Virus record (IMG/VR): IMGVR_UViG_3300005471_000005
Location: 1 to 48,152 of that record
Strand: one strand, 5' to 3'
Source: a virus
DNA: 48,152 nucleotides
Shown: one piece after another, positions 6,215 through 24,353 of the stretch
Numbering within the stretch: position 1 is the stretch's first letter
How the letters are laid out: every line of letters begins with the position of its first letter
Position numbers and translations under genes: made by a program
The notes under the pieces: generated by a model
What the model was told of the DNA's origin: nothing
Databases searched by the model: none
The model's input: the letters and a program-made list of their open reading frames with translations, nothing else

Positions 6215-6466
6215 TCACGCCTCCCCCGCGATCGGGCTCACTGCCAACATCGCGTCCATGAACGCCCTCTCTTGCTCTTTCATCCCACGATGAAGCGTGA
6301 TATGCAACCCGTGGATCATAGCAAACACCTCCTGATAGTCCGCATGCATAATGGTACGGTAGCCGTCGTCGAACTCGAACACGGCTAGGTAGGTGTCGAT
6401 GCCGTGTTCCTTGCAGAAGACATTAAAGGCTTCTGCAACGGCTTCGGATTTGGTTTGGTTGGTCAT
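6215..6466 (-). CDS. Hypothetical protein, 83 residues
   Basis: ATG 6466 overlaps the DNA polymerase stop (ATGA). The product looks like a small mixed alpha/beta protein, with a segment reading TYLAVFEFDDGYRTIMHADY and a C-terminal helix (EQERAFMDAMLAV). No family recognised. Its place directly after the polymerase suggests a replication accessory role, by context only. Confidence 0.65.
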   Translation of the reverse strand: MTNQTKSEAVAEAFNVFCKEHGIDTYLAVFEFDDGYRTIMHADYQEVFAMIHGLHITLHRGMKEQERAFMDAMLAVSPIAGEA

Positions 6467-8118
6467 GCGATTTCTCCTTCCTTAGGCCAAGGTTGGCCGG
6501 GTTTCCACTTCCACATTTCGCTCTTTTTCCAAGAGCGACCGACAAGGATTTCAACGGGGATTACCATCCGCCGCCCTCGAATGTTCATCCCAAAAGACAT
6601 GAGATGTAAAATCCTTCCAAGGGCCACATCGTCTCCCCATCGCACCATACCAAGAATAGCATCGTGAACCTGTGCGAGCAGCCAAGCGCGATTGGGCTGA
6701 CCACTATGAGGAACAACCCCGAGTTCGACGCTTCCATCCAACTCCTCCCATATCCTACACAACGCTACCCCCACCCAATCCACGATCATTGACTGTTGAG
6801 TTTGTGCAAGAGCCTCACGGCGTGTATCGCGAGCACCATCGCCCACAAGCCGACCAAGAAAAGTCCTTCTGCGCCCCACAGGAGACACCAACTGGCCGGT
6901 TTCAACAACCTCAGCCCAAATTTCGTTCTGCCTTGCGCGAACTCTCGGGTGACGGGCGAAGAAAACCTGCTGATACTCCTTCGCCAACGCCAACTTGATA
7001 TGTGCATCGCGTGCGATCCCATGTGGGCTCATGCCGATGGCTGAGCCGTGGCCTATGTGTTTGGCGTAGTCCCTATACCCAAGGTTATCATCCCAAGGTG
7101 GATGTAATTCCGCGCTAACCCGATCCGAAACAACATCCGGCCAAAACAGTTTGGCAACCTCAGTGTGAAGGTCTTTACCCGCCCCGTGCGCCTCGATATA
7201 ACCCAAATCTTGTGCGTCATACGCCACCGCCTCGCTCTCGGCCTTTTCATAGTCCGCGTAGAACAACACCAAGCCAGGGTCGGCCACAAACATCCCCCGG
7301 CTTCGATCCGCTACGTTCTGTATGTTACCTCCGGTCCAAAAGGCGCTCTTGCTGCTAGAATATCTGCCTGTGACTGCGGCACCAACGTTAACTGAGGAGC
7401 GCCATCGCCCATCAGCGTCAAGAGTAGAGCGCAGTAATCCCAATTGTTTTCGGGCACCACGAGCCTCCAAGATCGCGTCCACAACGCTGGCTGTGGCCCC
7501 TCCGAATTTCCTTCGCAAACGATCGAGACATTCATCATCCGTGCTCACCTTGTGCTGTTTGTTCTTCTGGGGTTTCAGCCCCATCAGTTCGTAGAGAAGT
7601 TTCCGGCATTGGACATGGCTGTGGGGATTGAACAGCTTTGGAACCAGCCGGCTTTTTCCGCATGTACCACACACCACCCCCCCACCTGGGGTAGTATCGC
7701 TCGTGCTTTGGAAGGGCAGGGCCTCCGCTAATGCGTCTTCCTTCGGCCAACGATGAAGTTTGTTTCCTTCGCACTTCCCACTCCTCTTCTCTGTCTCGGT
7801 CCAATAGGGAGCGACGATGGTTTGGAGAGAGGCGATGGCCTCCCGCTCCACCTCCTCCTGCCCTTTCACTGCTGCGCTTCGCGCTTCCTCGCTGATCGCA
7901 ATCCCCCGCATCGCCATCGCAAACGCCGGGGATTGCTGCGCAAGCTGAAACTCATACATGCGCTTGTCGAGAGGGTCGGCTTCCACCAGCGGCAATAGCG
8001 CATCGGCCACTTCCGCCGTGATCGCGCAGTCCATGCAATTATAGAGCCAATGTGTCCTTACTGCACCGTGCCCTTCAAGGTCGCTCTCGCGAAGGATCAG
8101 CGCCACCCTGACCCCCAC
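6463..8118 (-). CDS. Family A DNA polymerase, polymerase domain carrying exonuclease motif III
   Basis: 551 residues from GTG 8118. Motif A is FYADYEKAES (Asp289), motif B is YRDYAKHIGHGSAIG (about 348-362, Ile at the usual Tyr position) and motif C is AQVHDAIL (485-487, Ala where HDE has Glu); both metal-binding Asp residues are kept. A C...H...CGTC zinc-ribbon-like insert lies at 116-153. Residues 24-34 (WLYNCMDCAIT) match exonuclease motif III (YxxxD) of family A polymerases, while motifs I and II sit in the separate gene at 8568-9671. The natural reading is that one UDG-exonuclease-polymerase gene was split by the two small genes between them. It is the phage replicative polymerase. Confidence 0.9.
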   Translation of the reverse strand: MGVRVALILRESDLEGHGAVRTHWLYNCMDCAITAEVADALLPLVEADPLDKRMYEFQLAQQSPAFAMAMRGIAISEEARSAAVKGQEEVEREAIASLQTIVAPYWTETEKRSGKCEGNKLHRWPKEDALAEALPFQSTSDTTPGGGVVCGTCGKSRLVPKLFNPHSHVQCRKLLYELMGLKPQKNKQHKVSTDDECLDRLRRKFGGATASVVDAILEARGARKQLGLLRSTLDADGRWRSSVNVGAAVTGRYSSSKSAFWTGGNIQNVADRSRGMFVADPGLVLFYADYEKAESEAVAYDAQDLGYIEAHGAGKDLHTEVAKLFWPDVVSDRVSAELHPPWDDNLGYRDYAKHIGHGSAIGMSPHGIARDAHIKLALAKEYQQVFFARHPRVRARQNEIWAEVVETGQLVSPVGRRRTFLGRLVGDGARDTRREALAQTQQSMIVDWVGVALCRIWEELDGSVELGVVPHSGQPNRAWLLAQVHDAILGMVRWGDDVALGRILHLMSFGMNIRGRRMVIPVEILVGRSWKKSEMWKWKPGQPWPKEGEIA

Positions 8119-8219
8119 AACTTCATCCCAATCAACACCAGCAATGCCACCCCAATCGCCTCAAGCGCGATCCCAACGTGCTTGTCAAACCACAGGTCGA
8201 TATGTATTGGGCATTCCAT
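8097..8219 (-). CDS. Single-span membrane microprotein, 40 residues, inside the split polymerase
   Basis: ATG 8219 overlaps the stop of the upstream 115-residue gene as TAATG. The product has a short polar start (MECPIHIDLWFDKH), a hydrophobic span (VGIALEAIGVALLVLIGM) and a short tail ending GWR. Its last 22 nt overlap the GTG start of the polymerase gene in another frame, so the two are likely coupled. Family unknown; could be a host-membrane effector or a superinfection-type small protein, which is speculation. Confidence 0.65.
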   Translation of the reverse strand: MECPIHIDLWFDKHVGIALEAIGVALLVLIGMKLWGSGWR

Positions 8220-8566
8220 TAGGGATTACGCCAGGGAAGGACAATCTGGACACGCCCTTCTGGAATAAGCCCCTTCTTCTTCAAGATTTCAATCTCTCTT
8301 TCAATTTGAGTAATGATAAACCCACACCCCTCATAAAACTCTTCCGTCTCCTTCACGGGGTCGCCCGGCGTGTATGCCGCAGGCGCATCCGGCCTTGGGC
8401 ACGGCAAATTCGCTCCCCCCTCCCCCGCCTTATAACACCAGCACTCTGCAACCATCCCGCCGTTCTGGATCGCGCAGATATGCTCACGCACAAAGCGCTC
8501 CTGGCGACGGATGGCTTCAAGGTGTTTGCCTATTTCATCGAAGTCATCGGCGGTGCGGTTAGACAT
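8219..8566 (-). CDS. Hypothetical protein, 115 residues, between the two halves of the polymerase
   Basis: ATG 8566 has GAGG six nt upstream. The N-terminal half is helical and charged (residues 8-30), the middle has several Cys (CAIQNGGMVAECWCYKAG) and a Pro-rich turn, and the end is a coiled helix (QIEREIEILKKKG). No homing endonuclease motif is seen, so it is not an obvious mobile element, yet it occupies the position where the exonuclease domain is interrupted. The stop overlaps the next start (TAATG). Confidence 0.7.
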   Translation of the reverse strand: MSNRTADDFDEIGKHLEAIRRQERFVREHICAIQNGGMVAECWCYKAGEGGANLPCPRPDAPAAYTPGDPVKETEEFYEGCGFIITQIEREIEILKKKGLIPEGRVQIVLPWRNP

Positions 8567-8567
8567 A

Positions 8568-9671
8568 TCAGGCCTCGCGTTTCTCTTCGGATTGTTGTCT
8601 AAGCAATTTCCAAGGGAGGGGTGGCTTCCCATATGTGCTCCCGAGAAAGGCCAGTGACTTAGGAAGCTCAGGTTGTAGGACGTGATGCATCAGCCTCGTA
8701 TCATGCCGATAGTTCATCACCTTTATCCCCATCCGCGCCCAGATGTAACTGACATCGTATAGCCCATTCTGAAAGACCTTGGGTGTCGCCGAGGCCAAAA
8801 CTTTCTCGATCCAGGACCACGCGGCGACCTCCTCCTCCGCTGTCTTCCAATACGATCGGTTCGGTGCTCGGTAGTCCACCAACGGACAACAAATGGCATG
8901 TCCCGCGTCGGCTGCAAACCCCACACACGTAACCTGACCGCGCACAGTTTCGATGTCTACGGATAATAGCATCGACGCGCTGCCATACTGATCCCACCAT
9001 AGGTCTAGGTCTCCGAGGGTTGGCTCGATCCAAAGTTCGCGGGTCAGCTTATGTAATATGACATCAGGAACCTCTGCCTCTTTGATCGCACGCATGATGT
9101 CGGCTGCGACAACCCCGAGAAAGCGATAGTCTTGTAGAACATGCGCCGGGTGAAGGGTCGGGACAATCTTCGTGCCCGACGATACACGTTGCGCGAATTG
9201 CACGATACCACGCGCCTCTGTGATCCCCGTAGAGCCCGTAAACGCCCAGAGGGCTCCAGCGCCCAAAGGTATGATAACATCCGGGGCATAGGCTTCCAGT
9301 TCCTTCGCTAAACGATCCAACGCAGGACGGTGTTCGGGGCGTAGCCAGCCATAGTTGGGAGCGTACCATTCAGTCTCCTTAAATCCATCCCGCTCGCCTT
9401 CCGCTGCCCCCGCAAACAACTTCTGCATGTCATTATCAGGAAGCTGTGTATCCCATACGTTCCCGATGAAGTGATCCTTCCTGGCCCACAACAGCGGCCT
9501 CAAGCCGTGCCGTTTCATATCGGGCCGGAAGCCGAGAGGTGGATCGTCTGTTCGCGCGAGCCCTGTCATCCTGAGCATCCGCCAGAAGAGCCTGCCGCTT
9601 GGGCCTACAAGAGGTTCATTGACAACCATCTCCTCATAAGATGGGCTTTCTGCCACAAATGCTAGGCGCAC
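8568..9671 (-). CDS. Uracil-DNA glycosylase (family 4/5-like) fused to the N-terminal part of a DnaQ-like 3'-5' exonuclease
   Basis: 367 residues from GTG 9671. Residues 1-180 carry UDG superfamily motifs: FVAESPSYEE...EPLVGPSGRLF (5-29), a GN segment at 70-71, VIIPLGAGALWAFTG (132-146) and PTLHPAHVL (171-179). Residues 230-345 carry exonuclease motif I (SVDIETV, Asp239/Glu241) and motif II (FQNGLYDVSYIW, Asn302/Asp306). Motif III is missing here and appears at the N-terminus of the polymerase gene at 6463-8118. The gene therefore looks like the front part of a UDG-exo-PolA fusion that has been separated. The start overlaps the end of the HNH gene by 10 nt. Confidence 0.85.
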   Translation of the reverse strand: MRLAFVAESPSYEEMVVNEPLVGPSGRLFWRMLRMTGLARTDDPPLGFRPDMKRHGLRPLLWARKDHFIGNVWDTQLPDNDMQKLFAGAAEGERDGFKETEWYAPNYGWLRPEHRPALDRLAKELEAYAPDVIIPLGAGALWAFTGSTGITEARGIVQFAQRVSSGTKIVPTLHPAHVLQDYRFLGVVAADIMRAIKEAEVPDVILHKLTRELWIEPTLGDLDLWWDQYGSASMLLSVDIETVRGQVTCVGFAADAGHAICCPLVDYRAPNRSYWKTAEEEVAAWSWIEKVLASATPKVFQNGLYDVSYIWARMGIKVMNYRHDTRLMHHVLQPELPKSLAFLGSTYGKPPLPWKLLRQQSEEKREA

Positions 9672-10087
9672 AACGCTCTCCGTATACGTTGGCCTTCCAT
9701 CTTACAAGTGTGACAATATCTTCGACCATCGGGACGTATCCTGTCCAACTTATGCCCACGTTGGCATGTCTCTGTATAATGATGCTTCCCTGTTGGGCGT
9801 CTCCCGTTTCGACAATTCTCTAAAGGCGTCAGTGTTCGCAAATGTTCTGGGTTCCAACAGCTAGGGTTGAAGCACATATGATCTACAACATGACCATTTG
9901 GTATCTCTCCAACATACATCATGTATGATAACCTATGTACATACACCAAGCGATCATGAAACCACGTTTGTCTATAGCCCCATCCACTTTGCGAGCCGGT
10001 AAATAACCAACAACCACTTACCTCATCAACTACGGTTTTACGCCATAGTTTTTGCGATGGGGCCTCGGCGATGAAGGCGAGTTTCAA
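9662..10087 (-). CDS. HNH homing endonuclease with a UDG-derived N-terminus
   Basis: 141 residues from TTG 10087, overlapping the upstream stop as TTGA. Residues about 20-105 form an HNH_3-type nuclease: SGCWLFTGS, VYVHRLSYMMYVGEIP, VVDHMCFNPSCWNPEHLRTLT. A second zinc-ribbon-like part follows (CQRGHKL...YCHTCK). The first eleven residues, MKLAFIAEAPS, nearly equal the first eleven of the UDG protein just downstream (MRLAFVAESPS), although the codons differ. The endonuclease thus appears to sit at the very front of the UDG gene and to use a copy of its start. It is a free-standing mobile element with likely DNA cleavage activity. Confidence 0.88.
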   Translation of the reverse strand: MKLAFIAEAPSQKLWRKTVVDEVSGCWLFTGSQSGWGYRQTWFHDRLVYVHRLSYMMYVGEIPNGHVVDHMCFNPSCWNPEHLRTLTPLENCRNGRRPTGKHHYTETCQRGHKLDRIRPDGRRYCHTCKMEGQRIRRALCA

Positions 10088-10248
10088 GAAGACCGATCCT
10101 TCAAGCCATTATTATAGCCTCGCTCAAAAGCTTTCTTCCCTTGGGCGCGAGCCTCATCCAGCAAACGAAACAAAAAGACCATGTTCCATTCCTCTCCCCC
10201 TCTAACATACTCTTTGCGTAAGGCGGCTTCCCTTTCTTTATCTGTCAT
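10084..10248 (-). CDS. Hypothetical charged protein, 54 residues
   Basis: ATG 10248 has GGAG seven nt upstream; an in-frame ATG at 10254 is too close to it. The product is helical and charged (TDKEREAALRKEYVRGGEEW ... GKKAFERGYNNG). It overlaps the previous gene by 11 nt and the HNH start by 4. No family recognised. Confidence 0.65.
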   Translation of the reverse strand: MTDKEREAALRKEYVRGGEEWNMVFLFRLLDEARAQGKKAFERGYNNGLKDRSS

Positions 10249-10411
10249 CTTCATGCTCCAACTCATCCGCCTCATCCAAGAGCGCAAGATACTTTTCGTA
10301 GAGCGCGATGATCCTGCGAAGGCGATGGTTCTCTTTCAATGCCGCAACGCGGAGGGTGTGCTCCTCCAACCACGCCTCATAATAATTCTCTGTCTTTGTA
10401 AAATCATTCAT
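10238..10411 (-). CDS. Hypothetical coiled-coil protein, 57 residues
   Basis: ATG 10411 overlaps the stop of the sigma-like gene (ATGA). The product is strongly helical and charged (ENYYEAWLEEHTLRVAALKE, later ALYEKYLALLDEADELEHED). A small coiled coil next to a sigma-like factor could act as its partner or anti-sigma factor, but that is inference from position. No family recognised. Confidence 0.65.
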   Translation of the reverse strand: MNDFTKTENYYEAWLEEHTLRVAALKENHRLRRIIALYEKYLALLDEADELEHEDDR

Positions 10412-10872
10412 TGCATCACCCTCCGTAAGTTCCGCCTAGTTGCATACCGCGCCTTCTTTTCCTCTGAATACTCCCCATTCACCACGAACGCCACCAACTC
10501 CCGACCGGCTTTGGTTTGATCCAGCACGTTTAGGGCCTCCGACAGTGCCACAGCATCGTCGCCGTTCGCTTGGGTCATTGGCATGTTGGAGCTGAAATCC
10601 TCATCCCCCTCCTCACCAAACACCTCAGGCGTCAGCGCCTCGGTCTCCCGATGAACCATCTTCCTCCGCTCATCCACAAAATGATGCTGGGCGACAGACA
10701 TCATCCAGGCCGGGGAATGTACGCCATCCCATTCCCTCTGCGCGCGAATGATCTTCTCCACAGCGCCTTGGGTAAGGTCTTCGGCATCAAGCTGGCTGCC
10801 TTTTGCAAAGTTCTTTGCCGCCCGGCGAATGCTAGGGAGGAAGGTAAGGATTTCGGTATCCGACAATGACAT
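10408..10872 (-). CDS. Sigma-70 family (ECF-like) RNA polymerase sigma factor, region 4 degenerate
   Basis: 154 residues. Residues 20-71 match sigma region 2: DAEDLTQGAVEKIIRAQREW, then SPAWMMSVAQHHFVDERRK, the pattern of ECF sigma factors. A linker of acidic and polar residues (72-105) follows. The end (ALNVLDQTKAGRELVAFVVNGEYSEEKKARYATRRNLRRVMQ) has the length and helix layout of region 4 but lacks a clear helix-turn-helix consensus. It is the only transcription-initiation-like protein in the genome and could redirect host polymerase to late genes. Confidence is good for family, low for promoter target. Confidence 0.75.
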   Translation of the reverse strand: MSLSDTEILTFLPSIRRAAKNFAKGSQLDAEDLTQGAVEKIIRAQREWDGVHSPAWMMSVAQHHFVDERRKMVHRETEALTPEVFGEEGDEDFSSNMPMTQANGDDAVALSEALNVLDQTKAGRELVAFVVNGEYSEEKKARYATRRNLRRVMQ

Positions 10873-10933: not shown

Positions 10934-11010
10934 TGGTCTGGGAGGAAGGATTTGAACCTTCGACATCCGCCTTCCAAGGGCGACACTCTACCTGTCTGAG
11001 CTACTCCCAG
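10934..11010 (-). tRNA. tRNA-Pro (anticodon UGG), CCA end encoded
   Basis: A full cloverleaf is readable on the minus strand. The acceptor stem CTGGGAG pairs with CTCCCAG, the D arm is GCTC/GAGT, the anticodon stem is TCGCC/GGCGG with loop CTTGGAA (anticodon TGG), the T arm is GAAGG-TTCAAAT-CCTTC, the discriminator is A, and an encoded CCA follows. Total length is 77 nt. It lies in a spacer upstream of the sigma-like gene, transcribed in the same direction. No integrase is present, so use as an attachment site is unlikely. Confidence 0.93.
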
Positions 11011-11845: not shown

Positions 11846-13075
11846 TTACCCTTTCACACAAAGAACTTGCTTAAGCGTATGTATGATATCGACAAGCTCG
11901 ATTTGAGCTGCCATTACAGCGTCAATATTTTTATACGCTCCAGGCGTTTCATCAAGCACCCCCACATCCTTACGACATTCCACTCCCTTAGTCGCCGCTA
12001 TATGATCTTCAATCGTAAAGGTTCTTTCCGCTTGCCGTCGTCCCATTACACGTCCCGCTCCATGTGAGCAAGAGTTGAAACTGTCTGGATTTCCTTTACC
12101 TCTGACGATGTAAGATCGAACCCCCATTGATCCTGGAATAATGCCGAGGTCGCCATCACGAGCACGCACCGCCCCCTTACGGGTTACAAAAACATTTTGT
12201 CCGAAATGGTTTTCGCGGGCGACGTAATTATGATGACAGTTTACGGCATCTTTGTCAACCGTTATATCGCGTTCAAGTTCCGTTCTAATCGCGCTAATGA
12301 CATTAGACAACATAATCCGTCTATTGACCGCCGCAAAATCCTGAGCCCATGAAACAGCCTCAATATAATCATCAAAAACCTCTGAGCCCTCAGGAAGATA
12401 AGCGAGATCGACATCTGGTAGGTTGATAAACCAACGCTTCATATCAACCTTCGCTTGTTCAATAAAATAACTACCGACAGCATTACCAATGCCCCGAGAG
12501 CCTGAATGTAGCATAACCCAAACATCTTGGTTTTCGTCCAAGCAAACCTCAATGAAGTGATTTCCCGTTCCGAGAGTTCCAAGATGGTGAGGTGCCCGTT
12601 GTGCAGCACGCCCTAAACGCTTATGCTTCTCCGTTATGTGGGTTAGACCGGACATAATAGACTGGTTCCCATTCAGACCAATTTCATACAATACCCTTGT
12701 AGGAGGATCGCTCCAAGAGCCTCGATCATTTACCCCACCATTATCCGTGCGCCCATGGGGAACCGCCTTCTCGATCGCTGAACGCATACTTATGAGACTA
12801 TCCGGTAAATCGTTGGCGTTTATATTGAGCCGGGCTGCGACCATACCACAACCGATATCAACACCAACTGCGGCTGGGATAATAGCCCCCTTGGTTGCAA
12901 TCACGCTGCCGACCGTAGAACCCTTACCCCAATGTACGTCTGGCATGACAGCTAGATGCTTGAACACAAAAGGCATTTGTGTGATGTTAATTAATTGTGT
13001 CACAGCGGCCTCTTCAACAGGCACGCCCTCAGTCCAAGATTTAATTGGAATACGACCACCACCTATCACATTCAT
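11846..13075 (-). CDS. rtcB: RtcB-type RNA ligase
   Basis: 409 residues, close to the length of bacterial RtcB. It seals RNA 2',3'-cyclic phosphate or 3'-phosphate ends to 5'-OH ends with GTP and Mn2+. All signature elements are present in order: MPDVHWGKGSTVG, GVDIGCGM (metal Cys), GTGNHFIEV, LHSGSRGIGN, NCHHNYV, IPGSMGVRSYIV, CSHGAGR (guanylated His) and the C-terminal DETPGAYKNID...HTLKQVLCVKG. The active site looks intact. The start overlaps the Sak4-like gene (ATGA). It probably repairs host or phage tRNAs cleaved by antiviral ribonucleases; this is inference, supported by the phage-encoded tRNA nearby. Confidence 0.95.
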   Translation of the reverse strand: MNVIGGGRIPIKSWTEGVPVEEAAVTQLINITQMPFVFKHLAVMPDVHWGKGSTVGSVIATKGAIIPAAVGVDIGCGMVAARLNINANDLPDSLISMRSAIEKAVPHGRTDNGGVNDRGSWSDPPTRVLYEIGLNGNQSIMSGLTHITEKHKRLGRAAQRAPHHLGTLGTGNHFIEVCLDENQDVWVMLHSGSRGIGNAVGSYFIEQAKVDMKRWFINLPDVDLAYLPEGSEVFDDYIEAVSWAQDFAAVNRRIMLSNVISAIRTELERDITVDKDAVNCHHNYVARENHFGQNVFVTRKGAVRARDGDLGIIPGSMGVRSYIVRGKGNPDSFNSCSHGAGRVMGRRQAERTFTIEDHIAATKGVECRKDVGVLDETPGAYKNIDAVMAAQIELVDIIHTLKQVLCVKG

Positions 13076-13932
13076 TTAGGGGCACTCCTATAGCCACACA
13101 CACCTTCCATGATGTCCAACAATCCCGTTTCCTGCGGATACTTCGCTTTCACTCCTTTCATTGGTACACCAATGTCTATGGGCATGTCGTCGGGGGGTGT
13201 AGTAAAAATCCACCTCTTCCCGTCTATCTGCTCAACAAGGACGCTCGCCGGTACACGACGTAGTATCTCTTGTGGGAGCGCTCTGCCAAGGGCAGTCGGA
13301 TAATAACGCGTCGGCATGTTCTTGGCATTCGCAGCGGATATCGCGGTCTTTGCCTTAACCAATTCCTCATCATCATCCTTCGCAAACCTCTCTGTCTTCG
13401 GCCCGATCAGCTTGAGATGCGCGGTTACGATAAGATGGCAATGGAAGTCCGGTCCCGCAAGCCAGGAGAGGAATTGATCCTCTGCGCGCATTGCCGCGCC
13501 CCACTCCAGATCACGGATCGCGCCAAACTGTCGATTGTTAATGAACATGACATTGTGGAAGGCTGCATCACCGAAGCCGGTGAGGCTGTCGAGCACAATG
13601 ATGCTTTCTGGCCCCCAAGAGGCCACCGGGCCCCAAGGGTGCTCCTTATCCACCTTCCCCCAATCATCGAGAGCACGATGGGCCTTGCGAAGGGCTTGGG
13701 GCTCGTCACGGAATGTCATGCTCCCATCGCTGTTGACTTTCATCTTGTCTCGAAGGGGAAGGATGGATAGGGTGTCGGGATGGTTGCCGCCGAAGGTGAG
13801 AAGGGGGTCTGCATTCAAATCAAAATCGAGTATCCCTATTCTAAAGCCAGCTTCCAGCAAACAAGCCATTGCGCCTGTCTTACCTGCCTTAGGTCTCCCC
13901 ATAGAAACCAATCGGAGGCGTTCAGCGAACAT
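13072..13932 (-). CDS. Sak4-like RecA-fold ATPase (AAA_24 type) for recombination
   Basis: 286 residues from ATG 13932, with GAAGGAG seven nt upstream, overlapping the nuclease gene by 11 nt. Walker A is GRPKAGKT (12-19) and Walker B is SIIVLDSLTG (Asp115). Short single-domain RecA-like ATPases of this layout in phages are the Sak4 single-strand annealing family. Company of a RecB/Cas4-like nuclease upstream and a DUF669-like protein downstream fits a phage recombination module. Distinction from other AAA_24 proteins cannot be made without a profile search. Confidence 0.75.
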   Translation of the reverse strand: MFAERLRLVSMGRPKAGKTGAMACLLEAGFRIGILDFDLNADPLLTFGGNHPDTLSILPLRDKMKVNSDGSMTFRDEPQALRKAHRALDDWGKVDKEHPWGPVASWGPESIIVLDSLTGFGDAAFHNVMFINNRQFGAIRDLEWGAAMRAEDQFLSWLAGPDFHCHLIVTAHLKLIGPKTERFAKDDDEELVKAKTAISAANAKNMPTRYYPTALGRALPQEILRRVPASVLVEQIDGKRWIFTTPPDDMPIDIGVPMKGVKAKYPQETGLLDIMEGVCGYRSAPK

Positions 13933-15004
13933 CCTTGCTCTCCTTCACATACCCAGCCTTCAACACATGTTCTCGTACACTCGGGGCTGCCGCGCACACG
14001 TCTAAAAACTCACAAGGCTTTCCACCAGCAGCGAAATTACAAACAGCAGTCCGACGAGGCCAATGACCAGCGGCATGATATCGATGGGCGTCTGCAATGA
14101 GAGATAGGATTTCGCGTTCGGTCTCGGCGCGGTGCTCTGGCCCCTTTGTGATCGGTGTCCTTGCAATCCGAACCCCTCCTGCCTGGATTTGCACAGCCTC
14201 CAGCATGACCCCATCGCACCGTATGCCAAGCTTGTGGGCGGCGAGATCGTAGGTAGCCACTTGAAGATTGGTTTCATAGCCTCTCCAGTAATCGCGTCCG
14301 AGATAGCGGGAGGTGGTTTTGCGCTCGTGAACGAAGCGGGTTTCGCCTAGGGAGGAATAACGGTCCCAATGGGTTTGGATGGTGAAAGTTCCGCCAAAAA
14401 GGTGTCGGGGCCACTCATCATCGCCCCAATGAAGCTCAAACTCCAACTCAACTTCCAGCCCCGGTTCCTGCCCGTTCACCGATGCCACCCCCAACCCTTC
14501 GCTGGCATCGCAATACGCCAAGACCGCGCGCAGGAGGCTCAACCTATTCTTTGCGGGATGATTGTTCAAGAGTTGGGTGCGATTTTCCACTGGCCTGTTG
14601 CATTTTGGACACAGGCGCGGACTTCCGATCCACCAATCGCGAGCGGCATCACAGGCGAACGAGCGTCGGGTGTGAGAGGGGTTCCACGATAGGCCGGTGC
14701 AGGTCCACTCGTCAACCACGGTGCCCCATAGGGGGCGGTTAGCTTCAAAGTCCCAAGTAAGGATCAATACAGTGTCAATTGCGTTGTCTGTTGCCTCTTC
14801 AATTGACACCCCAAAGAACCTATCGTGATCGAACTCCTCCACCACAGCATGAAATACCGTCCCAAAGTCGGCATGGGGGGCAGCCCCTACCTCTTCCGGT
14901 TTTCTCCATCCTTCTTCACGCATAGCGAAGCGTGCCGGACATTGATCGAGGATGGCAAGGGATGACGGACGCCATTTGGTTGGGAGATCAGGGTTGATGG
15001 TCAT
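13922..15004 (-). CDS. PD-(D/E)XK nuclease, RecB/Cas4-like with cysteine cluster
   Basis: 360 residues from ATG 15004 (ATGA overlap). The N-terminus has LPTKWRPSSLAILDQCPARF (Cys22), typical of Cas4/AddB-like nucleases. The motif HERKTT provides the E-x-K pair. The C-terminus has CNFAAGGKPCEFLDVC, which with Cys22 gives four cysteines fit for a 4Fe-4S cluster. An extra CPKC pair sits mid-protein. The Asp usually found a few strands before E-x-K (GxxD) is not obvious; GGTFTIQ is present instead, so catalytic status is uncertain. It is coupled to the Sak4-like ATPase. Confidence 0.75.
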   Translation of the reverse strand: MTINPDLPTKWRPSSLAILDQCPARFAMREEGWRKPEEVGAAPHADFGTVFHAVVEEFDHDRFFGVSIEEATDNAIDTVLILTWDFEANRPLWGTVVDEWTCTGLSWNPSHTRRSFACDAARDWWIGSPRLCPKCNRPVENRTQLLNNHPAKNRLSLLRAVLAYCDASEGLGVASVNGQEPGLEVELEFELHWGDDEWPRHLFGGTFTIQTHWDRYSSLGETRFVHERKTTSRYLGRDYWRGYETNLQVATYDLAAHKLGIRCDGVMLEAVQIQAGGVRIARTPITKGPEHRAETEREILSLIADAHRYHAAGHWPRRTAVCNFAAGGKPCEFLDVCAAAPSVREHVLKAGYVKESKDVR

Positions 15005-15180
15005 GACAATTGAGCGTAATGGATTGCCACAAAGCGTCCTACATAATAAAGCCACACTACCCCATCCCAAAACCCCATTCCGGGTTGGTTCATTATATGG
15101 ATTGCCCCACCAAGCCAAAAAAGAAAGCCAAAACTTACTCGTGTATTAAGAAAGCCGTTAACGTCAACCGATTTACGCAT
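15001..15180 (-). CDS. Small membrane protein, 59 residues
   Basis: ATG 15180 follows GAGGAG at about 7 nt. Two hydrophobic stretches are visible: VSFGFLFWLGGAIHIM and GVVWLYYVGRFVAIHY, consistent with a two-span membrane protein. The stop overlaps the nuclease start (ATGA). Function unknown. Confidence 0.65.
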   Translation of the reverse strand: MRKSVDVNGFLNTRVSFGFLFWLGGAIHIMNQPGMGFWDGVVWLYYVGRFVAIHYAQLS

Positions 15181-15397
15181 CATCGCTCTCCTCATTTTCG
15201 CTAACGTTAGATACCGTTTCCGGCGCGGCCCGATCACCACGTTTCAGCTCCCAGGCAGCACGTTCAGATCGGAGGCGTGCGATAAGGGCTGGCCTCGCCG
15301 CCGCCAGCCTATTAGGCGACATCGCCATGAAGGCATCAAGGGTTGGGGATGTGCGGATGCGCTCGATAAGGGCAATGGTGTCCTCTTCGTCATTCAT
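15173..15397 (-). CDS. Hypothetical protein, 74 residues, carrying a CTAACGTTAG site
   Basis: ATG 15397 has AGGAG seven nt upstream. The product is charged and helical (DEEDTIALIERIR, ALIARLRSERAAWELKRGD) with an acidic C-terminus. The palindrome CTAACGTTAG at 15201-15210 encodes SNVS near the C-terminus. No family recognised. Confidence 0.65.
   Translation of the reverse strand: MNDEEDTIALIERIRTSPTLDAFMAMSPNRLAAARPALIARLRSERAAWELKRGDRAAPETVSNVSENEESDDA
15201..15210. promoter_or_regulatory. CTAACGTTAG palindrome, copy 2
   Basis: Core of the repeated palindrome, within the longer shared string TCGCTAACGTTAG. On the minus strand it also extends to GTATCTAACGTTAG, as in the nrdJ copy. Confidence 0.6.
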
Positions 15398-15614
15398 CTT
15401 CAATCTCCTCTCTCGGCCCAAGAGAACCGTCAGGAAGACGAGGCCGGATATGACATGCAAACGGTATAAAAGTGTCTATAATATCTCTTATATGTATAGC
15501 CTCCTCGCGAGATACTGCGGGGATACAAAGAGTATAAGGGCGGTATTCAGCTTCGTCCGTCAATTGGCTGTTTTGTTCTTGTTGCGAGGTAGATGTTTCG
15601 GGGAGCGTTGTCAT
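15390..15614 (-). CDS. Hypothetical protein, 74 residues
   Basis: ATG 15614 lies 68 nt inside the upstream gene in another frame, an unusually long overlap for this genome. The N-terminus is polar and Gln/Ser/Thr-rich (TSTSQQEQNSQ); the rest reads as a compact domain (YRPYTLCIPAVSREEAIHIR). Its stop overlaps the next gene. A later start cannot be excluded. Confidence 0.5.
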   Translation of the reverse strand: MTTLPETSTSQQEQNSQLTDEAEYRPYTLCIPAVSREEAIHIRDIIDTFIPFACHIRPRLPDGSLGPREEIEDE

Positions 15615-15849
15615 CCTTCTTTTGCCCTTTCAAAATACCGTAGGCGAACGTCGCACGGAGTTGGTGGATGTCTACGAGGCCGGTGCGGAAGGCATTATAC
15701 ACCGCATCCGCAAGCGCGTCAAGCTCGGGGTTTTCGTCATGACGCTCGTAGCCTAGCAATCCAATGTGGTAGACATACTTCGCGTTTGGGCGCGCGTCAT
15801 GCACCCAGGCGAGGAAGTTGGTAACGGCTTGCGGCCTCTCATCCATCAT
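15547..15849 (-). CDS. Hypothetical protein, 100 residues
   Basis: ATG 15849 has GAGG six nt upstream and overlaps the preceding stop. The product has an N-terminal helix (RPQAVTNFLAWVHDARPNAK), a segment VYHIGLLGYERHDENPELDA and a helical domain (LADAVYNAFRTGLVDIHQLRATFAYGILK). No family recognised. The C-terminal 22 codons overlap the next gene. Confidence 0.6.
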   Translation of the reverse strand: MMDERPQAVTNFLAWVHDARPNAKYVYHIGLLGYERHDENPELDALADAVYNAFRTGLVDIHQLRATFAYGILKGQKKDDNAPRNIYLATRTKQPIDGRS

Positions 15850-16018
15850 TCGCCGCCTCGAAATGCTCCAAAATAGCGCGCAATTCTCGAAGCGTGAAGG
15901 AAGATATGATATTCGCGCCATCCGCCGCAAAGACGATATCTTTGGCGTCTGGATCACGATAAACCTTAATTACGCTACCGGGGGAATTCCAGTCCGGGAA
16001 AATCAAGCTATCAGGCAT
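15839..16018 (-). CDS. Hypothetical protein, 59 residues
   Basis: ATG 16018 overlaps the previous stop as TGATG with GGAGG six nt upstream; a GTG one codon earlier is a weaker option. The product ends in a helix (TLRELRAILEHFEAAND). No family recognised. Confidence 0.6.
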   Translation of the reverse strand: MPDSLIFPDWNSPGSVIKVYRDPDAKDIVFAADGANIISSFTLRELRAILEHFEAANDG

Positions 16019-16146
16019 CACTCACCTCCACTCACCTTCACAAGATACCAAAAGCCGAATTCGATGTCGCTGGGCAGCATATCGCGCCGCCAGACAAGGT
16101 GTGCGCCATCATAGGCGCGGATGCTATGGTCGTATTGGGATTTCAA
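16018..16146 (-). CDS. Hypothetical microprotein, 42 residues, TTG start
   Basis: TTG 16146 overlaps the upstream stop as TTGA and follows GGAGGA at six nt. The product reads as a compact beta-type protein (YDHSIRAYDGAHLVWRRDM, then FGFWYLVKV). The stop overlaps the next ATG (TGATG). The regular overlaps at both ends and the ribosome site support it despite its size. Confidence 0.6.
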   Translation of the reverse strand: MKSQYDHSIRAYDGAHLVWRRDMLPSDIEFGFWYLVKVSGGE

Positions 16147-16298
16147 AGTCCATCCTCCTCATCAAGCTCTTTATTACGTTCAAAGGCTAATTGCTCTGCA
16201 AAATCCTCCCAGCCTGGCTCAAATGTCGCTATAAGCTCTTCCCCATATAGAAGGGCCGCGATAGGTGGGTAAGGATATTCCACCTTAAACCTTTTCAT
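16143..16298 (-). CDS. Hypothetical protein, 51 residues
   Basis: ATG 16298 overlaps the stop of the upstream gene (ATGA). The product has a Pro/Tyr-rich start (VEYPYPPIAALLYG) and an acidic end (ELDEEDG). No family recognised. Both junctions are 4-nt overlaps, which supports translation. Confidence 0.65.
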   Translation of the reverse strand: MKRFKVEYPYPPIAALLYGEELIATFEPGWEDFAEQLAFERNKELDEEDGL

Positions 16299-16828
16299 GC
16301 CAACGCTCCATCAGGCAAATCGGGAATGGGAGGATCATCATCATCGTCACCAAAAAAATGTGACATGACATCTCTCATCACCTCGTTATCAGGAAACGAC
16401 AGCTTTTCAATCCGCTGTGCTGTGGGTGGTGGCATCCTCACGCGCCGTGAGGTTTGGCCTTCGGGAATGCGGGAGAGGATGACGGCATAGTGGCAACATA
16501 ATGTACAGCTATCAGGCCCAAAACCATGATCGGTGCATTGTGCTGGCCGCAGACACATTCCAGTCTCCCGTCGCACACCGACGCTCATCCGATCGAAATA
16601 CCCAATCCCCTCCCCTTTGGGATCAACCTCTGTGGCCTCAAAACTGCCAGGAGGGCCGAGGCGTGAGGCAGCACGAAAACGTGACAGGGCGGCGGCTGCG
16701 CGTTTGGCTTCGGCCTTTGTCGGATACTCCAACACCAACGTATCGTTTGGGCCAAGTTGTTCAGCAAGGAAAAGGTAGCGTGCCACAGGATGCGCTTCGG
16801 TTATCGTGCGGGATCGAGTTGTGGGCAT
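16295..16828 (-). CDS. Hypothetical protein with cysteine/histidine cluster, 177 residues
   Basis: ATG 16828 overlaps the upstream stop as TAATG. Residues about 92-113 hold five Cys and two His (CLRPAQC, then CTLCCHYA), consistent with a metal-binding knot. Before it lies an Ala/Arg-rich helix (KAEAKRAAAALSRFRAASR), and the C-terminus is very acidic (GDDDDDPPIPDLPDG). No family recognised. Confidence 0.65.
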   Translation of the reverse strand: MPTTRSRTITEAHPVARYLFLAEQLGPNDTLVLEYPTKAEAKRAAAALSRFRAASRLGPPGSFEATEVDPKGEGIGYFDRMSVGVRRETGMCLRPAQCTDHGFGPDSCTLCCHYAVILSRIPEGQTSRRVRMPPPTAQRIEKLSFPDNEVMRDVMSHFFGDDDDDPPIPDLPDGALA

Positions 16829-17127
16829 TACGTTCTCTTCCCAACAAGGGCTTCCGAAATCCGTCCGGTCGTGACGCCAATCTCTGCTGCCATGTCTGCA
16901 TAGTCCATATCGGGGTGTTGGGTGGCGAAGGCACGGATAAGGCGAACGGGCGGTGTTTTCTTCGATCTTGGGGCAAGGCGAACGGGTTTACGGCGATAAA
17001 GTTCCGTTTCGATCATACGAAGCCGCGCCGCCTTATCAGCAAGCGTCTGATTGGCGTCGATTTCTGCGTATTCATCCAACCACTCAGCAATAGCAAGCAG
17101 TTCGATCCTGATTTCAGGGATGACCAT
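16828..17127 (-). CDS. Helix-turn-helix DNA-binding protein, 99 residues
   Basis: ATG 17127 has GGAG seven nt upstream; the frame is open further upstream but without a ribosome site. The C-terminal part (VRLIRAFATQHPDMDYADMA, then AEIGVTTGRISEALVGKR) reads as a helix-turn-helix of the type used by small phage regulators. The N-terminal half is helical and may dimerise. It sits near the start of the second leftward gene block, downstream of the 17364-17694 non-coding region, so it could regulate that block; this is inference. Confidence 0.65.
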   Translation of the reverse strand: MVIPEIRIELLAIAEWLDEYAEIDANQTLADKAARLRMIETELYRRKPVRLAPRSKKTPPVRLIRAFATQHPDMDYADMAAEIGVTTGRISEALVGKRT

Positions 17128-17192
17128 TCCAATTCTCCATGCGGATAAGGGGATTAACGGGCGGGGGAGGAGAAGATGGGTGCGGCGGATTG

Positions 17193-17363
17193 TCACAGGG
17201 GGTAGGGATAAGCCCCTCCATCTGTCCAAGCGAAAATGTCCCACATTTCCTGCTCAGTTATCATACCATCGTCGCAATATTCATGGGCGATGGCGCGTAG
17301 CTCGACGGCGGTATCGTCACAGGGATTGTCCTGGTACGCTCCAATGGCTCGATCTAAGGTCAT
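17193..17363 (-). CDS. Hypothetical acidic protein, 56 residues
   Basis: ATG 17363 follows GGAG at 8 nt. The product is acidic (DDTAVELRAIAHEYCDDGMI, TEQEMWDIFAWTDGG) and probably helical. It is the first gene after the non-coding region at 17364-17694, so it probably heads a transcript. No family recognised. Confidence 0.65.
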   Translation of the reverse strand: MTLDRAIGAYQDNPCDDTAVELRAIAHEYCDDGMITEQEMWDIFAWTDGGAYPYPL

Positions 17364-17441
17364 GTCCCTTGCTCCGTAGTTTTGCACAACTTTCGCGTCT
17401 TACCTGTTATATCGGACCCCTCGCGTGCATCTACAAGGGGT

Positions 17442-17456
17442 GCGACAAAATGTCGC
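17442..17456. repeat. Inverted repeat GCGACA-AAA-TGTCGC
   Basis: A perfect 6-bp inverted repeat with a 3-nt spacer lies between the AT-rich tract and the 17193 gene. Possible operator. Confidence 0.45.
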
Positions 17457-17638
17457 GAAAAGGGGGATTGGTTAATCTTTTCATATACTTATATGAATAA
17501 CATAATATATATGTACTTTCACACCTTATATAAGAGTTACAATCTTTTACACACCCATTCCCCCACGCACACGGGGGGGTCAAAATCACAGGTAATTGTG
17601 CATAATTGGATATCAAACAGATGAGGGTATTAGCGGGA

Positions 17639-17666
17639 CTAGGGGCATTACCGTATTTGCCCCTAG
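17639..17666 (-). terminator. Hairpin CTAGGGGCA-N10-TGCCCCTAG
   Basis: A perfect 9-bp inverted repeat lies 29-56 nt past the stop of the 17695 gene in the leftward direction. It would form a strong RNA hairpin, without a following T run. It is a candidate transcription stop or pause between the first and second leftward blocks. Confidence 0.45.
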
Positions 17667-17694
17667 ATGTTGTGGCGTGCAATCCGCTCATCTA

Positions 17695-17889
17695 CTAATC
17701 CCTCCACCTAAACCATTGACAATCATCAATTCTATGCCGAGCTTGCTTGGCTCGCCACACTAAGTCTTTGATTGCATTGTGGTAGGTCACGGCGTCGGTA
17801 TGCAGCAGGCATACCGCAGCGGCCCAAAGTCGATCCGGTGATTTCACTAATGGGTTGGCAACGATGGAGAGGGCATCGGAGCGTGTCAT
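17695..17889 (-). CDS. Hypothetical protein, 64 residues
   Basis: ATG 17889 overlaps the stop of the 27-residue membrane peptide gene (ATGA) and has GAGG 8 nt upstream. The product is helical with Trp/Arg-rich C-terminus (LVWRAKQARHRIDDCQWFRW). It is the last gene before the non-coding region at 17364-17694. Confidence 0.65.
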   Translation of the reverse strand: MTRSDALSIVANPLVKSPDRLWAAAVCLLHTDAVTYHNAIKDLVWRAKQARHRIDDCQWFRWRD

Positions 17890-17969
17890 AACATGTACCT
17901 CGCGATGATGGGTAGGAGGATGGTTAAGAGGCCCCCTAGTAGGACCAAGGCTTTCATGTTTCGTGTCAT
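17886..17969 (-). CDS. Single-span membrane microprotein, 27 residues
   Basis: ATG 17969 overlaps the peptidase stop (ATGA) with GAGG 8 nt before it, and the stop overlaps the next ATG (ATGA). After MTRNMK the product is one hydrophobic helix (ALVLLGGLLTILLPII) ending ARYML. Two exact overlaps and a good ribosome site support it in spite of its length. Function unknown. Confidence 0.6.
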   Translation of the reverse strand: MTRNMKALVLLGGLLTILLPIIARYML

Positions 17970-18937
17970 CTCTCATACCTCGCTCCAAGGTCAAATCCCT
18001 CATCTTCGCAAGCTTCCACCATGTCTGCCACGTTCAACCCCATGCGCTCGATAAGCTGGGCGGCAACCTCAGGGTAATCGCGGCAAAGCTCAATCAAGGC
18101 TTCGTCAGGAAGCTCGATTTCCTTTGCGAATGTGGTTGCGTAGCTCACCGATGATTTCTTGGTGTAGTAGATCACGTCGTCATCGTCGATGTCGCCGGGT
18201 TGGCGCTCGAATACTAGCTTGTCATAGTCAAATCGCACAAGCTCATTCCGAAGGTTTTGCAGGAACCAAATGTCGAGGGTTTCGGTCGGACCATGTGCCC
18301 CCTCATAGCCTACGCTGATGTTGGAGCATTCACCGATCAGGTCCGTGTAGTTGGCGGTATCCGTAAACGTGCCTGTATCGTCAAGCTCCCAGGTCGGTCC
18401 CAATAGGCGGCATAGGGACTGCCCGAACGTATCGCTGCACGTTCTCGTCATCTGATGCGTTATGACGCTTGTGGTTCCCTTACGATCGAAGGCAATGGCA
18501 GCCTTATAATCGCGCAGCAACAAGCCATGCTCTTTGGCGATATACGCGCTCCCAAGCCCTCCAAATTCCTCGCCAGCGTGAAATACATACAAGCCGCTCA
18601 CGTTCGCCGCAATCATTTCCCTCATAAGCCAAACGCCCGCTGCATCGTCAGCGCCAAGGCATAGGCCGCGAACGGGGTTTTTGAGATGGGCTATCCCTTC
18701 TTTAATCGCGATCTTTTGGCGTCCGCTGGCATGGTGTACGGTGTCGGTATGGCAAGAGAAAAGAATGGGCGCTGTGCCAATCCTTACCATGCCATTGCCG
18801 AATTTGTCATAGTGGATGCCCGGAAGGGTATTAACGAAACGCTGCACAAATGCTGCCTCTGCATCGCTCTTATGCGGCCTGCCATAAGTCAGCATTGCCA
18901 ATAGGTCTTTGGTTGTTTCGGTTGCGAATTGGGTCAT
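17966..18937 (-). CDS. M20/M28-type zinc peptidase
   Basis: 323 residues. Metal and catalytic motifs of di-zinc aminopeptidases are present: SCHTDTVHH (His63, Asp65), LGADDAAGV (Asp97), HAGEEFGGLGS (Glu123, Glu124), AFDRKG (Asp151) and GAHGPTE (His215). There is no signal peptide, so it acts in the host cytoplasm. The C-terminal 90 residues are acidic and helical and look extra to the core. A complete cytosolic exopeptidase or deacylase is unusual among phage early genes; the substrate could be a peptide or an acylated small molecule. Its start overlaps the zinc-knuckle gene (ATGA). Confidence 0.85.
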   Translation of the reverse strand: MTQFATETTKDLLAMLTYGRPHKSDAEAAFVQRFVNTLPGIHYDKFGNGMVRIGTAPILFSCHTDTVHHASGRQKIAIKEGIAHLKNPVRGLCLGADDAAGVWLMREMIAANVSGLYVFHAGEEFGGLGSAYIAKEHGLLLRDYKAAIAFDRKGTTSVITHQMTRTCSDTFGQSLCRLLGPTWELDDTGTFTDTANYTDLIGECSNISVGYEGAHGPTETLDIWFLQNLRNELVRFDYDKLVFERQPGDIDDDDVIYYTKKSSVSYATTFAKEIELPDEALIELCRDYPEVAAQLIERMGLNVADMVEACEDEGFDLGARYER

Positions 18938-20412
18938 GGTAGCTCCACAATGCGATAGGGTTCTAGGGAAAGCGTAGGCGTAATTCTACCATCCAAGCGT
19001 CGATACCCAACGATAAACATCGTAAGCTGATTATAATCCTCCACTTTTGGACTTGTCGTCTTTAACAACACAAGCCCACTGGCGATTTCCCTCGGCTTGT
19101 TGTCTTGCTCATGCGCTTTACCAAACAAATCCGCATGATCCTCACGCCATTGTTCACATTCGCGGCAATCGCAGGCTTTGGCGTCATCCGCGAGCATCCC
19201 ACAATGGGTTTCCTCTAGGCGACTCGCACATTCCTCGCAATGATAATCGCCATTGATGTCTTCGCGCATGCCGCGATCGAAATACTCATCGCATGTCGCG
19301 CAAGCGGTATAGTTCTCGGCGCAATTTTCACACATATCGCCGTTTGAGGTATGGAGATAACATTCGCCTGCCACATCCTCATTGCATCCCTCGCAGTAGA
19401 AAGCGTCATTCTCTCGGCAATACTCGCACCACGTTTCGCCGCCGACCGTGTAGATTTCGCCGGTTGTGCGCTCTTCGCAATGTTCACAAAAAACGCCACA
19501 ATCAGCGAGGCCGTTTGTGTTGGTACATTCAATATCGCCATCATAAGCGAGTACCAAAAACCTGCCGTTATCCTCTACGTTAACAATGTTATCCAAATAA
19601 GGAACTATGAAACCATCCTCATCCTCAATCCTCAAAAGCCTAGCGCCTTCAAATTCGCTGTCACCGCGCTCAAACCCCGCTTCTTGCAATAATCCCCTCA
19701 ACCTACTCTCATCGCCATAAATCCGCCCATAAACCTTCTTTTCCGGCCAGCAAATCGCGCGGGCGGTAATGCGGGAGTTTTCGCCGCCCTCGCTATCACC
19801 AGCGCGTTCACATTCCAGGTTTTCAATATAAGCCACGGCTAGATCGCCAGCGCCATATACGCGAACGGGATGCTGTGAGCTATCGTAATAGCTAGCCTTT
19901 TTGCTCATACAACTCCTCGGCCCATTCGTATACACTTCCTCAATCTCATCTGGCGTTGTGGCAAATTTAAGCTCAATATCCTCATTCTCGGCGGCATACT
20001 TTCCGCACCATGCGCGAATATCATCCTGTGAGAGCTTATCGTTGTAATACGCGGTGAGGTATCGCCCTGGCCGCATGACAGTCTGAATATCCCGCTCGCC
20101 ATGCTCGTCATTCTTAGTGAACGCGAGCTTGCTAGGGGATTTGCGGGAGACATGAGCGAAGTGGGAGGCGATAACCCATGGCTCATCATGCCAGGGAGTT
20201 TTCTTGTAAACGCCAGCATCAAACAGCCGTTGCTCACGATTATGCCATGCTGGCTTGTCGCTAACGTTAGAGACTGCGATCTTAACAACGCGGTATTTGC
20301 GGCCTTTGACATCAGCCAACACACGCGCTTTGGTAGCGGCAAGCGAACCATTATAAAACGGTCCGCCTTCCCGTTCGCCTGTCTCAACATCGATCACAAC
20401 GAATTGTGTCAT
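18934..20412 (-). CDS. Large early protein with an array of Cys-x2-Cys zinc knuckles
   Basis: 492 residues from ATG 20412, with GGAG about 9 nt upstream. Residues 1-290 hold a domain with SCMSKKASYYDS, VYGAGDLAVAYIE, ARAICWPEKKVYGRIYGDE and LLQEAGF. Residues about 310-430 carry at least seven C-x2-C pairs in tandem (FCEHCEE, WCEYCREN, YCEGCNE, MCENCAEN, ACATCDEY, HCEECAS, CDCRECE), like a chain of small zinc knuckles or a LIM/B-box-like array. The C-terminus returns to a mixed domain. No enzyme motif is clear. It may bind RNA or host proteins. Confidence 0.75.
   Translation of the reverse strand: MTQFVVIDVETGEREGGPFYNGSLAATKARVLADVKGRKYRVVKIAVSNVSDKPAWHNREQRLFDAGVYKKTPWHDEPWVIASHFAHVSRKSPSKLAFTKNDEHGERDIQTVMRPGRYLTAYYNDKLSQDDIRAWCGKYAAENEDIELKFATTPDEIEEVYTNGPRSCMSKKASYYDSSQHPVRVYGAGDLAVAYIENLECERAGDSEGGENSRITARAICWPEKKVYGRIYGDESRLRGLLQEAGFERGDSEFEGARLLRIEDEDGFIVPYLDNIVNVEDNGRFLVLAYDGDIECTNTNGLADCGVFCEHCEERTTGEIYTVGGETWCEYCRENDAFYCEGCNEDVAGECYLHTSNGDMCENCAENYTACATCDEYFDRGMREDINGDYHCEECASRLEETHCGMLADDAKACDCRECEQWREDHADLFGKAHEQDNKPREIASGLVLLKTTSPKVEDYNQLTMFIVGYRRLDGRITPTLSLEPYRIVELP
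20261..20270. promoter_or_regulatory. CTAACGTTAG palindrome, copy 3
   Basis: Core of the repeated palindrome inside TCGCTAACGTTAG, near the start of the zinc-knuckle gene, encoding VSNVSD in that gene. Confidence 0.6.
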
Positions 20413-20418
20413 TGGATA

Positions 20419-20607
20419 CTACTCCACAAGATCACTCGGAAGCGTATAGCCCCAATTTACGGCATCGCATTCATTGCAGACTGGCCCAAAGCCATATTCA
20501 ACCAGCGTTGTTGGCTTGCCACAAACCTTGCAAGGCTGCGGTTCCTCGCAATAGTCGTGCTCGTCATCCCACGCATCGTCTTCCTCTTGCGTCCATTTCT
20601 TTGTCAT
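20419..20607 (-). CDS. Small zinc-finger protein, 62 residues
   Basis: ATG 20607. The product is acidic at the start (EEDDAWDDEHDYCEE) and then has CKVCGKP...GPVCNECDAVNWG, a C-x2-C...C-x2-C zinc ribbon. Its small size and position just before the large zinc-knuckle gene suggest a shared role. No further family call. Confidence 0.7.
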   Translation of the reverse strand: MTKKWTQEEDDAWDDEHDYCEEPQPCKVCGKPTTLVEYGFGPVCNECDAVNWGYTLPSDLVE

Positions 20608-20613
20608 GTTGTC

Positions 20614-21396: not shown

Positions 21397-21551
21397 GACA
21401 TCCTTTCGATAAGTGCCTCGGCGCGTTCAATCTGTTCACGGAATTGTGCTGCGATCCGAGGCTGATTGGCCCATGTTATCTCGTCACGCTCGTATTGCTC
21501 AATCGCAATCTCAAGCGCACAAATGATGTCATTGCGTTCCGTTTCCGTCAT
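21393..21551 (-). CDS. First gene of the leftward unit, hypothetical, 52 residues
   Basis: ATG 21551 has GGAG eight nt upstream. The product is a charged helix (MTETERNDIICALEIAIEQY, later AAQFREQIERAEALIERMS). It opens the leftward transcription unit directly beside the control region. The stop overlaps the next start. Confidence 0.7.
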   Translation of the reverse strand: MTETERNDIICALEIAIEQYERDEITWANQPRIAAQFREQIERAEALIERMS

Positions 21552-21577
21552 CGCTCACACTCCTCCAAATTCACTCT

Positions 21578-21587
21578 CTAACGTTAG
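21578..21587. promoter_or_regulatory. CTAACGTTAG palindrome, copy 5, upstream of the first leftward gene
   Basis: The only intergenic copy, 27-36 nt before ATG 21551, where an operator of the leftward promoter would be expected. Confidence 0.6.
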
Positions 21588-21609
21588 CGACTATCACGCC
21601 CATTGTCAC

Positions 21610-21649
21610 GTTTCAACTTGTTTCAAGATGTTTCAGGGTGTTTCAGTCC
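21610..21649. repeat. Four GTTTCA repeats with exact 10-bp period
   Basis: GTTTCAACTT, GTTTCAAGAT, GTTTCAGGGT, GTTTCAGTCC follow each other without gaps. On the minus strand this is four TGAAAC hexamers one helical turn apart, about 60-100 nt upstream of the first leftward gene. It could be an iteron array or a multi-site operator. Confidence 0.8.
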
Positions 21650-21708
21650 ATCGCCCTCACGCGCGTATGATTGCTCGGGCACGCGCGCATAGCACAAGCT
21701 CGCTGCCC

Positions 21709-21721
21709 TGTCACTGTGACA
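21709..21721. promoter_or_regulatory. Palindrome TGTCAC-T-GTGACA
   Basis: Perfect 6-bp inverted repeat around one central base, in the control region. Possible operator. Confidence 0.5.
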
Positions 21722-21739
21722 CATTGTCGCATCCTGCAC

Positions 21740-21756
21740 TATGCATATCATGCATA
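21740..21756. promoter_or_regulatory. Palindrome TATGCAT-ATC-ATGCATA
   Basis: Perfect 7-bp inverted repeat with a 3-nt centre in the control region. Possible operator. Confidence 0.5.
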
Positions 21757-21789
21757 ATGACTGCACCACCCATGCACGTTATCAATGAT

Positions 21790-21808: not shown

Positions 21809-21810
21809 AA

Positions 21811-24350: not shown

Positions 24351-24353
24351 CCA

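Follow-up and report, generated by a model that had tools for sequence, protein, structure and literature searches.

An HNH endonuclease gene in this phage opens with a copy of the first 11 codons of the gene that follows it, which encodes a UDG-exonuclease. In the history that we consider probable, a homing gene of the HNH type entered the UDG gene past codon 11, took over the start of its target, and now lies ahead of a synonymously different copy that restores what it displaced. Both genes are on the minus strand of the window, that is, the whole 48,152-nucleotide stretch that was analysed. In the ORF list, the HNH ORF spans 9662–10087 (141 aa, TTG start, MKLAFIAEAPSQKLWRKT...) and the UDG-exonuclease ORF 8568–9671 (GTG start, MRLAFVAESPSYEEM...). 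The upstream copy of UDG codons 1–11, MKLAFIAEAPS (10055–10087), is the start of the HNH ORF and presumably the resident UDG start. The downstream copy, MRLAFVAESPS (9639–9671), provides the working UDG start; no in-frame start other than its GTG retains motif I of the UDG. The two starts are 416 nt apart and the two ORFs are in different frames, so that the UDG needs a start of its own.

The junctions on either side of the HNH gene are compact. The original prediction described a 10-nt overlap where the HNH gene stops and the UDG begins, and the ORF coordinates place it at 9662–9671; such an overlap is unremarkable alone, as 143 of 168 surveyed HNH genes overlap a downstream ORF start with their 3' end (ORFs of at least 80 aa). 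Four bases ahead of the GTG, within the 3' end of the HNH gene, the sequence reads GGAGAG (9676–9681, minus strand), the likely ribosome-binding site of the UDG. On the other side, a small ORF (10084–10287, minus strand) ends in a TGA that overlaps the HNH TTG (TTGA), an ordinary operon junction that would fit an original UDG start at 10087. Slightly further upstream, the window encodes a Sigma-70 region 2 match (ORF 10408–10872, minus strand; 1.9e-7), a tRNA-Pro gene (10934–11010, minus strand) and, near the latter, a 409-aa ORF (11846–13075, minus strand) that looks RtcB-like by eye and has an unusually low GC3 (0.41).

The resemblance between the two protein starts, the core of the original prediction, was borne out. 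Seven of the ten residues after the initial Met are identical, and the BLOSUM score over residues 2–11 is 40, compared with 23 for the runner-up among 102,378 ORF pairs in the window. No pair among 20 million random pairs scored 40, and the score tops all mismatched pairs (12,473 to 28,032 pairs). We also built a UDG profile from 17 N-termini of UDG relatives, with the window excluded, and scored with it 132,830 start codons, each with 10 open codons after it. The HNH N-terminus received 17.5 bits, and only two true UDG starts scored as high. The window UDG's own start (AESPS) received 11.8 bits; the HNH leader (AEAPS) is thus the nearer of the two to the UDG family. Because this profile score is otherwise reached only by real UDG starts, the HNH start is, as far as sequence can tell, a UDG start by origin. 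We regard a chance match, or a leader peptide common to HNH proteins, as having a next to negligible probability. Only 11 residues match, and an unrestricted search over many starts and frames yields scores of 26–28 randomly, but the score of 40 lies above every mismatched pair and refutes chance for the window; a common leader is at odds with the specificity of the match to the UDG profile and with its absence from related HNH proteins in the alignment.

At the nucleotide level, the two 33-nt starts share 19 of 33 positions, 3 of 11 third positions and no identical run longer than 6 nt. The synonymous sites of the two copies are as different as under independent codon choice, in agreement with the earlier view that this is not a recent duplication. 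Pooling the window with two further cases described below (L079 and L117), 3 of 16 shared residues use identical codons and 13 differ, compared with 6.0 identical codons expected under independent choice, a difference that is not significant (P 0.085). Since the downstream copy is spelled differently, it does not recreate the original target sequence.

The same divergence would also be expected if the HNH gene had arrived from another phage with part of a UDG start already attached to it. In this alternative, which the original prediction named beside a rebuilt start, the downstream copy would be the resident one and nothing would have been rebuilt. The synonymous sites show no recent common ancestry of the two copies, and phage HNH genes move between lineages. 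Base composition leans the other way: the leader copy has a GC3 of 0.82, unlike the HNH body (0.40), whereas the downstream start is closer to the HNH body, with a GC3 of 0.36 over UDG codons 1–22 (9606–9671, minus strand) and 0.62 over the remainder of the UDG gene. The HNH gene as a whole has a GC of 0.47, against 0.54 for the phage. This pattern fits an upstream copy that is resident and a downstream copy brought by the element, and the first 22 codons may be an imported patch or co-conversion tract. However, gene starts often favor AT-rich codons anyway, and the composition test is weak (Fisher p 0.023 for codons 1–22 against the rest, p 0.01–0.02 post hoc, changepoint p 0.11), so we do not take GC3 as proof of the resident copy; it is suggestive at most. 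The TTGA overlap upstream, a normal operon junction, also speaks against an imported fragment, an origin that we consider unlikely.

The HNH protein itself is predicted to be an intact nuclease. It matches Pfam HNH_3 over residues 48–91 (9815–9946, minus strand) with 7.5e-15 and 54.7 bits against a cut-off of 24.8, and also matches PHROG HNH families. In an alignment of 20 HNH proteins, its D69, H70 and N91 occupy invariant columns and align, with the same spacing, with D74, H75 and N96, the catalytic residues of I-HmuI (PMC12724721). Four further invariant columns (C108, H112, C125, C128) mark a C-terminal CxxGH...CxxC segment that resembles a zinc ribbon (9704–9766, minus strand). The conserved core of these proteins opens at (R/K)(F/L)W.K(V/T), directly past the 11-residue leader, and native HNH relatives start at or near the end of the leader. 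The original prediction had proposed an insertion at UDG codon 11/12 that left the UDG start doubled, and this position of the core supports it. No ATG, GTG or TTG lies between HNH codon 1 and codon 47, which is already inside the nuclease domain.

Structure prediction assigns the shared residues different roles in the two proteins. In the HNH model, residues 1–10 are predicted to be disordered (mean pLDDT 52), while in the UDG model the leader residues form the first beta-strand (residues 3–7) and the motif loop (mean pLDDT 92 over residues 1–10). By these models, the leader is baggage for the HNH protein and structure for the UDG. The best PDB match of the HNH model is I-HmuI (1u3e), which is of the same HNH type with the catalytic D-H-N, but is intron-borne and has no target-derived leader. 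The window's gene appears to be free-standing, outside any intron or intein. An HNH gene within a self-splicing intron, whose removal from the message would link codons 1–11 of the upstream copy with codon 12 of the UDG gene, would agree with the frequent intron-borne state of phage HNH genes and with the in-frame reading of the HNH gene from the upstream start. Yet an Rfam search at the locus gave no match even at E up to 10, the HNH ORF occupies the 416-nt interval and leaves no space for a ribozyme core, and a downstream copy of codons 1–11 would serve no purpose; splicing is therefore a very improbable explanation. The best reading of the gene is a predicted free-standing homing endonuclease of the I-HmuI type, which would cleave and home.

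The target belongs to the replication machinery. The UDG ORF matches Pfam UDG (5.7e-10) and the N-terminal half of phrog_17, a DNA polymerase family; it carries AESPSYEE (motif I) and LHPAH (the HPA motif), and its PDB matches by profile and fold (1vk2, 1l9g and 9qhs) comprise family-4 UDGs and the phiLo family-A polymerase. ORF 8568–9671 is a family-4-type UDG with a 3'-5' exonuclease; it makes up the N-terminal portion of a family-A DNA polymerase that is split, the polymerase domain being in a separate ORF (8118–6463, minus strand). As part of the replicative polymerase, the UDG-exonuclease is likely to be essential. The earlier idea of a homing element in an essential gene holds with respect to the means by which such an element can sit in a needed gene. 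Within the split (6463–9671, minus strand), the UDG-exonuclease reaches phrog_17 position 788 and the polymerase ORF restarts at 808, and a 137-aa ORF with no assigned function (8219–8632) lies between the two. Comparable splits, with different small ORFs, are present in the polymerases of Caulobacter phage Kuura, L001 and L002. An insert that resembles an intein by eye, running from roughly GCLTAGHEVLTPSGWAP to ISLTGNS, lies in the polymerase ORF of L001 (5214–7922, 902 aa) and is missing from that of the close relative L002 (616 aa).

Relatives without the HNH gene agree with an insertion. About 40 UDG relatives in viral contigs each have one UDG start and no HNH gene within the fetched DNA. 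The comparison with HNH-free phages suggested by the original prediction thus gave the single UDG N-terminus it anticipated, although the nearest relatives are only 31–41% identical, too distant to make an empty site visible. The collections contained no closely related HNH-free allele, and the insertion point and the resident copy are those proposed from the window's own sequence. Among 50,697 phage records, none matched the locus at the DNA level, and searches for close relatives of the HNH protein, the polymerase and the locus DNA found none. The DNA pattern LAF[IV]AE[AS]PS matched four contigs, all unrelated, and was discarded. We also looked for related HNH proteins that carry the same N-terminus with no UDG nearby, which would contradict the prediction; none was found, and this again argues against a fragment that travels with its nuclease.

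To place the locus in a wider context, we set the HNH N-terminus at every fetched HNH locus against that of the adjacent ORF downstream, with mismatched pairs as the null. Restricted to adjacent ORFs, three pairs scored at least 26, where 0.07 were expected among 156 HNH genes and 0.09 among 168. By score alone, the two weaker pairs are not outstanding once the adjacency restriction is dropped. Taking over a target's start is not the usual route, as 165 of the 168 surveyed HNH genes have no target-derived start. HNH genes at 37 bacterial genome loci and nine annotated phage HNH loci contained no additional case.

The second case, L079, is firm by sequence, and we regard it as an independent instance of the same architecture at an unrelated target gene. 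Its HNH protein starts MDITRTVEPKS and the next gene MDLAHSIEPNS; the target is one of a large family of actinophage genes that begin MDLTESIAPKSDQLNAEDLL. On a profile of the target family's starts, the HNH start received 21.7 bits. The other starts that score this high all have the form of the target family (79 of 128,971 in all). Here, too, the insertion is placed after codon 11. The target gene has a single start, and no HNH gene ahead of it, in L259 (78% identical to the L079 target) and in phages Whack, Holliday and Faja; likewise, most of 80 viral contigs with an L079-family gene are HNH-free with a single start. The gene ahead of the HNH-free targets is usually a direct neighbor, an exonuclease where annotated. 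In L079, an extra ORF sits between this exonuclease and the HNH gene, a point in favor of a travelling fragment. In the third pair, L117, MARIGAL (HNH) precedes MARVGAL (glycosyltransferase), with five shared residues, all with differing codons, and a score of 26. We treat L117 as a likely but tentative case, which may still be a chance match, since the glycosyltransferase has a single phage relative, a distant one (39%).

The site just upstream of the MDLTESIAPKS-family gene is an insertion hotspot: different HNH genes lie directly before it in several actinophages (L260, L279, L300, L319 and L079), and two HNH genes ahead of it have a WKPVVGYEGLYEVS-type start. In L260, the HNH start MAPKTRPAIDRF just ahead of the L079-type target could hold the eroded remains of APKS, but the stretch is too short for a claim. 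We also rejected Arthrobacter phage Faja genes 72/73 (L177:2254–3220), where an HNH gene overlaps an SSB start by 8 nt and the two starts (MAKVGR and MANDQP) are unlike.

The additional cases bear on the order of events. If the 5' end of the UDG gene had long ago been duplicated in tandem, and an HNH core had moved in later, the same anatomy would arise as a by-product, with no selection for homing; duplication is also common. This would, however, require two independent events at one codon, and the same architecture is found again at an unrelated gene, an HNH gene being present each time, while no HNH-free phage with a doubled start occurs among the UDG and L079-family relatives. We therefore find this history improbable, and favor insertion of a homing gene that restored its target.

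Under insertion with restoration, a free-standing HNH gene of the I-HmuI type would have entered the UDG-exonuclease gene past codon 11, within conserved motif I, and lost its own start, so that its translation would begin, in frame, at the target's start codon and use the target's ribosome site. Its product would carry 11 UDG residues ahead of the HNH protein proper. At its 3' end, the element would supply a ribosome site along with another set of codons 1–11 that differs at synonymous positions; from the GTG of this set, the interrupted UDG would be translated in full, with translation coupled to the HNH stop. In uninterrupted alleles, the nuclease would cut around codons 11–12, and repair would copy the HNH gene together with the differently spelled codons, with one arm formed by the upstream gene plus codons 1–11 and the second by the sequence from codon 12 on. 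The altered spelling may block re-creation of the target site, and thereby protect against cleavage, and may lower loss by recombination between direct repeats; this protection, like the identity of the resident copy, is inferred. Such an element would behave as a naturally occurring "home and rescue" drive. More broadly, HNH genes coupled to a recoded target 5' end that their own nuclease cannot cut may form a recurring class of phage homing elements, a splice-free home-and-rescue drive, a generalization that we offer tentatively and consider somewhat less likely than not.

For homing genes in protein-coding genes, the usual solution is an intron or intein, a split that the target tolerates, or an intergenic position. 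In the open-access literature, we found no description of an HNH gene in a phage that has adopted the N-terminus of its target, and several known systems share part of the arrangement. Mobile ORFs of fungal mitochondria, in Allomyces atp6 and in Glomus atp6, atp9, cox2 and nad3, carry a replacement C-terminus that encodes nearly the same protein with different codons (63.5% nucleotide and 91% amino acid identity in Glomus atp6; PMC3630166). As in the window, an endonuclease lies beside a duplicated, synonymously diverged end of a needed target. They differ in replacing the C-terminus with LAGLIDADG or GIY-YIG enzymes in organelles, whereas the window has an HNH gene at an N-terminus in a phage, and only in the window is the displaced target start reused as the start of the nuclease gene. 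The ShiLan domain is an HNH insertion in mycobacteriophage methylases in which no intron or intein was found; the first 11 HNH residues resemble 11 target residues past the insertion site, for which the authors weigh a possible intron signature (PMC11855218). An HNH insertion in a phage gene and an 11-residue likeness to the target are thus common to both. However, in ShiLan the insertion is mid-gene, with the nuclease out of frame and hidden and the target frame open through the insert, while in the window the HNH gene is in frame with target codons 1–11 and stops before UDG codon 12.

The T4-type HNH genes mobE and mobA are free-standing, lack promoters and are translationally coupled; they lie in replication genes or next to them, their flanks are co-converted, and they sit between genes or split their targets (mobE in Aeh1 nrdA, mobA in gene 60; PMC2988022). 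They resemble the window as free-standing HNH genes at replication genes; unlike the window, the target is split in two, and a doubled, differently spelled terminus is not described. Engineered HomeR drives place a homing nuclease in an essential gene together with a rescue (PMC7968924), as the proposed element would; this is an analogy of design only and implies no relatedness.

The window thus points to a further solution for homing genes: to take the target's start and return a differently spelled one. This would link phage HNH genes with the mobile ORFs of fungi and offers a reading of the unexplained 11-residue likeness at the ShiLan insertion. It also provides a simple signature that can be searched for in all phages, an HNH N-terminus that equals the N-terminus of the next gene.
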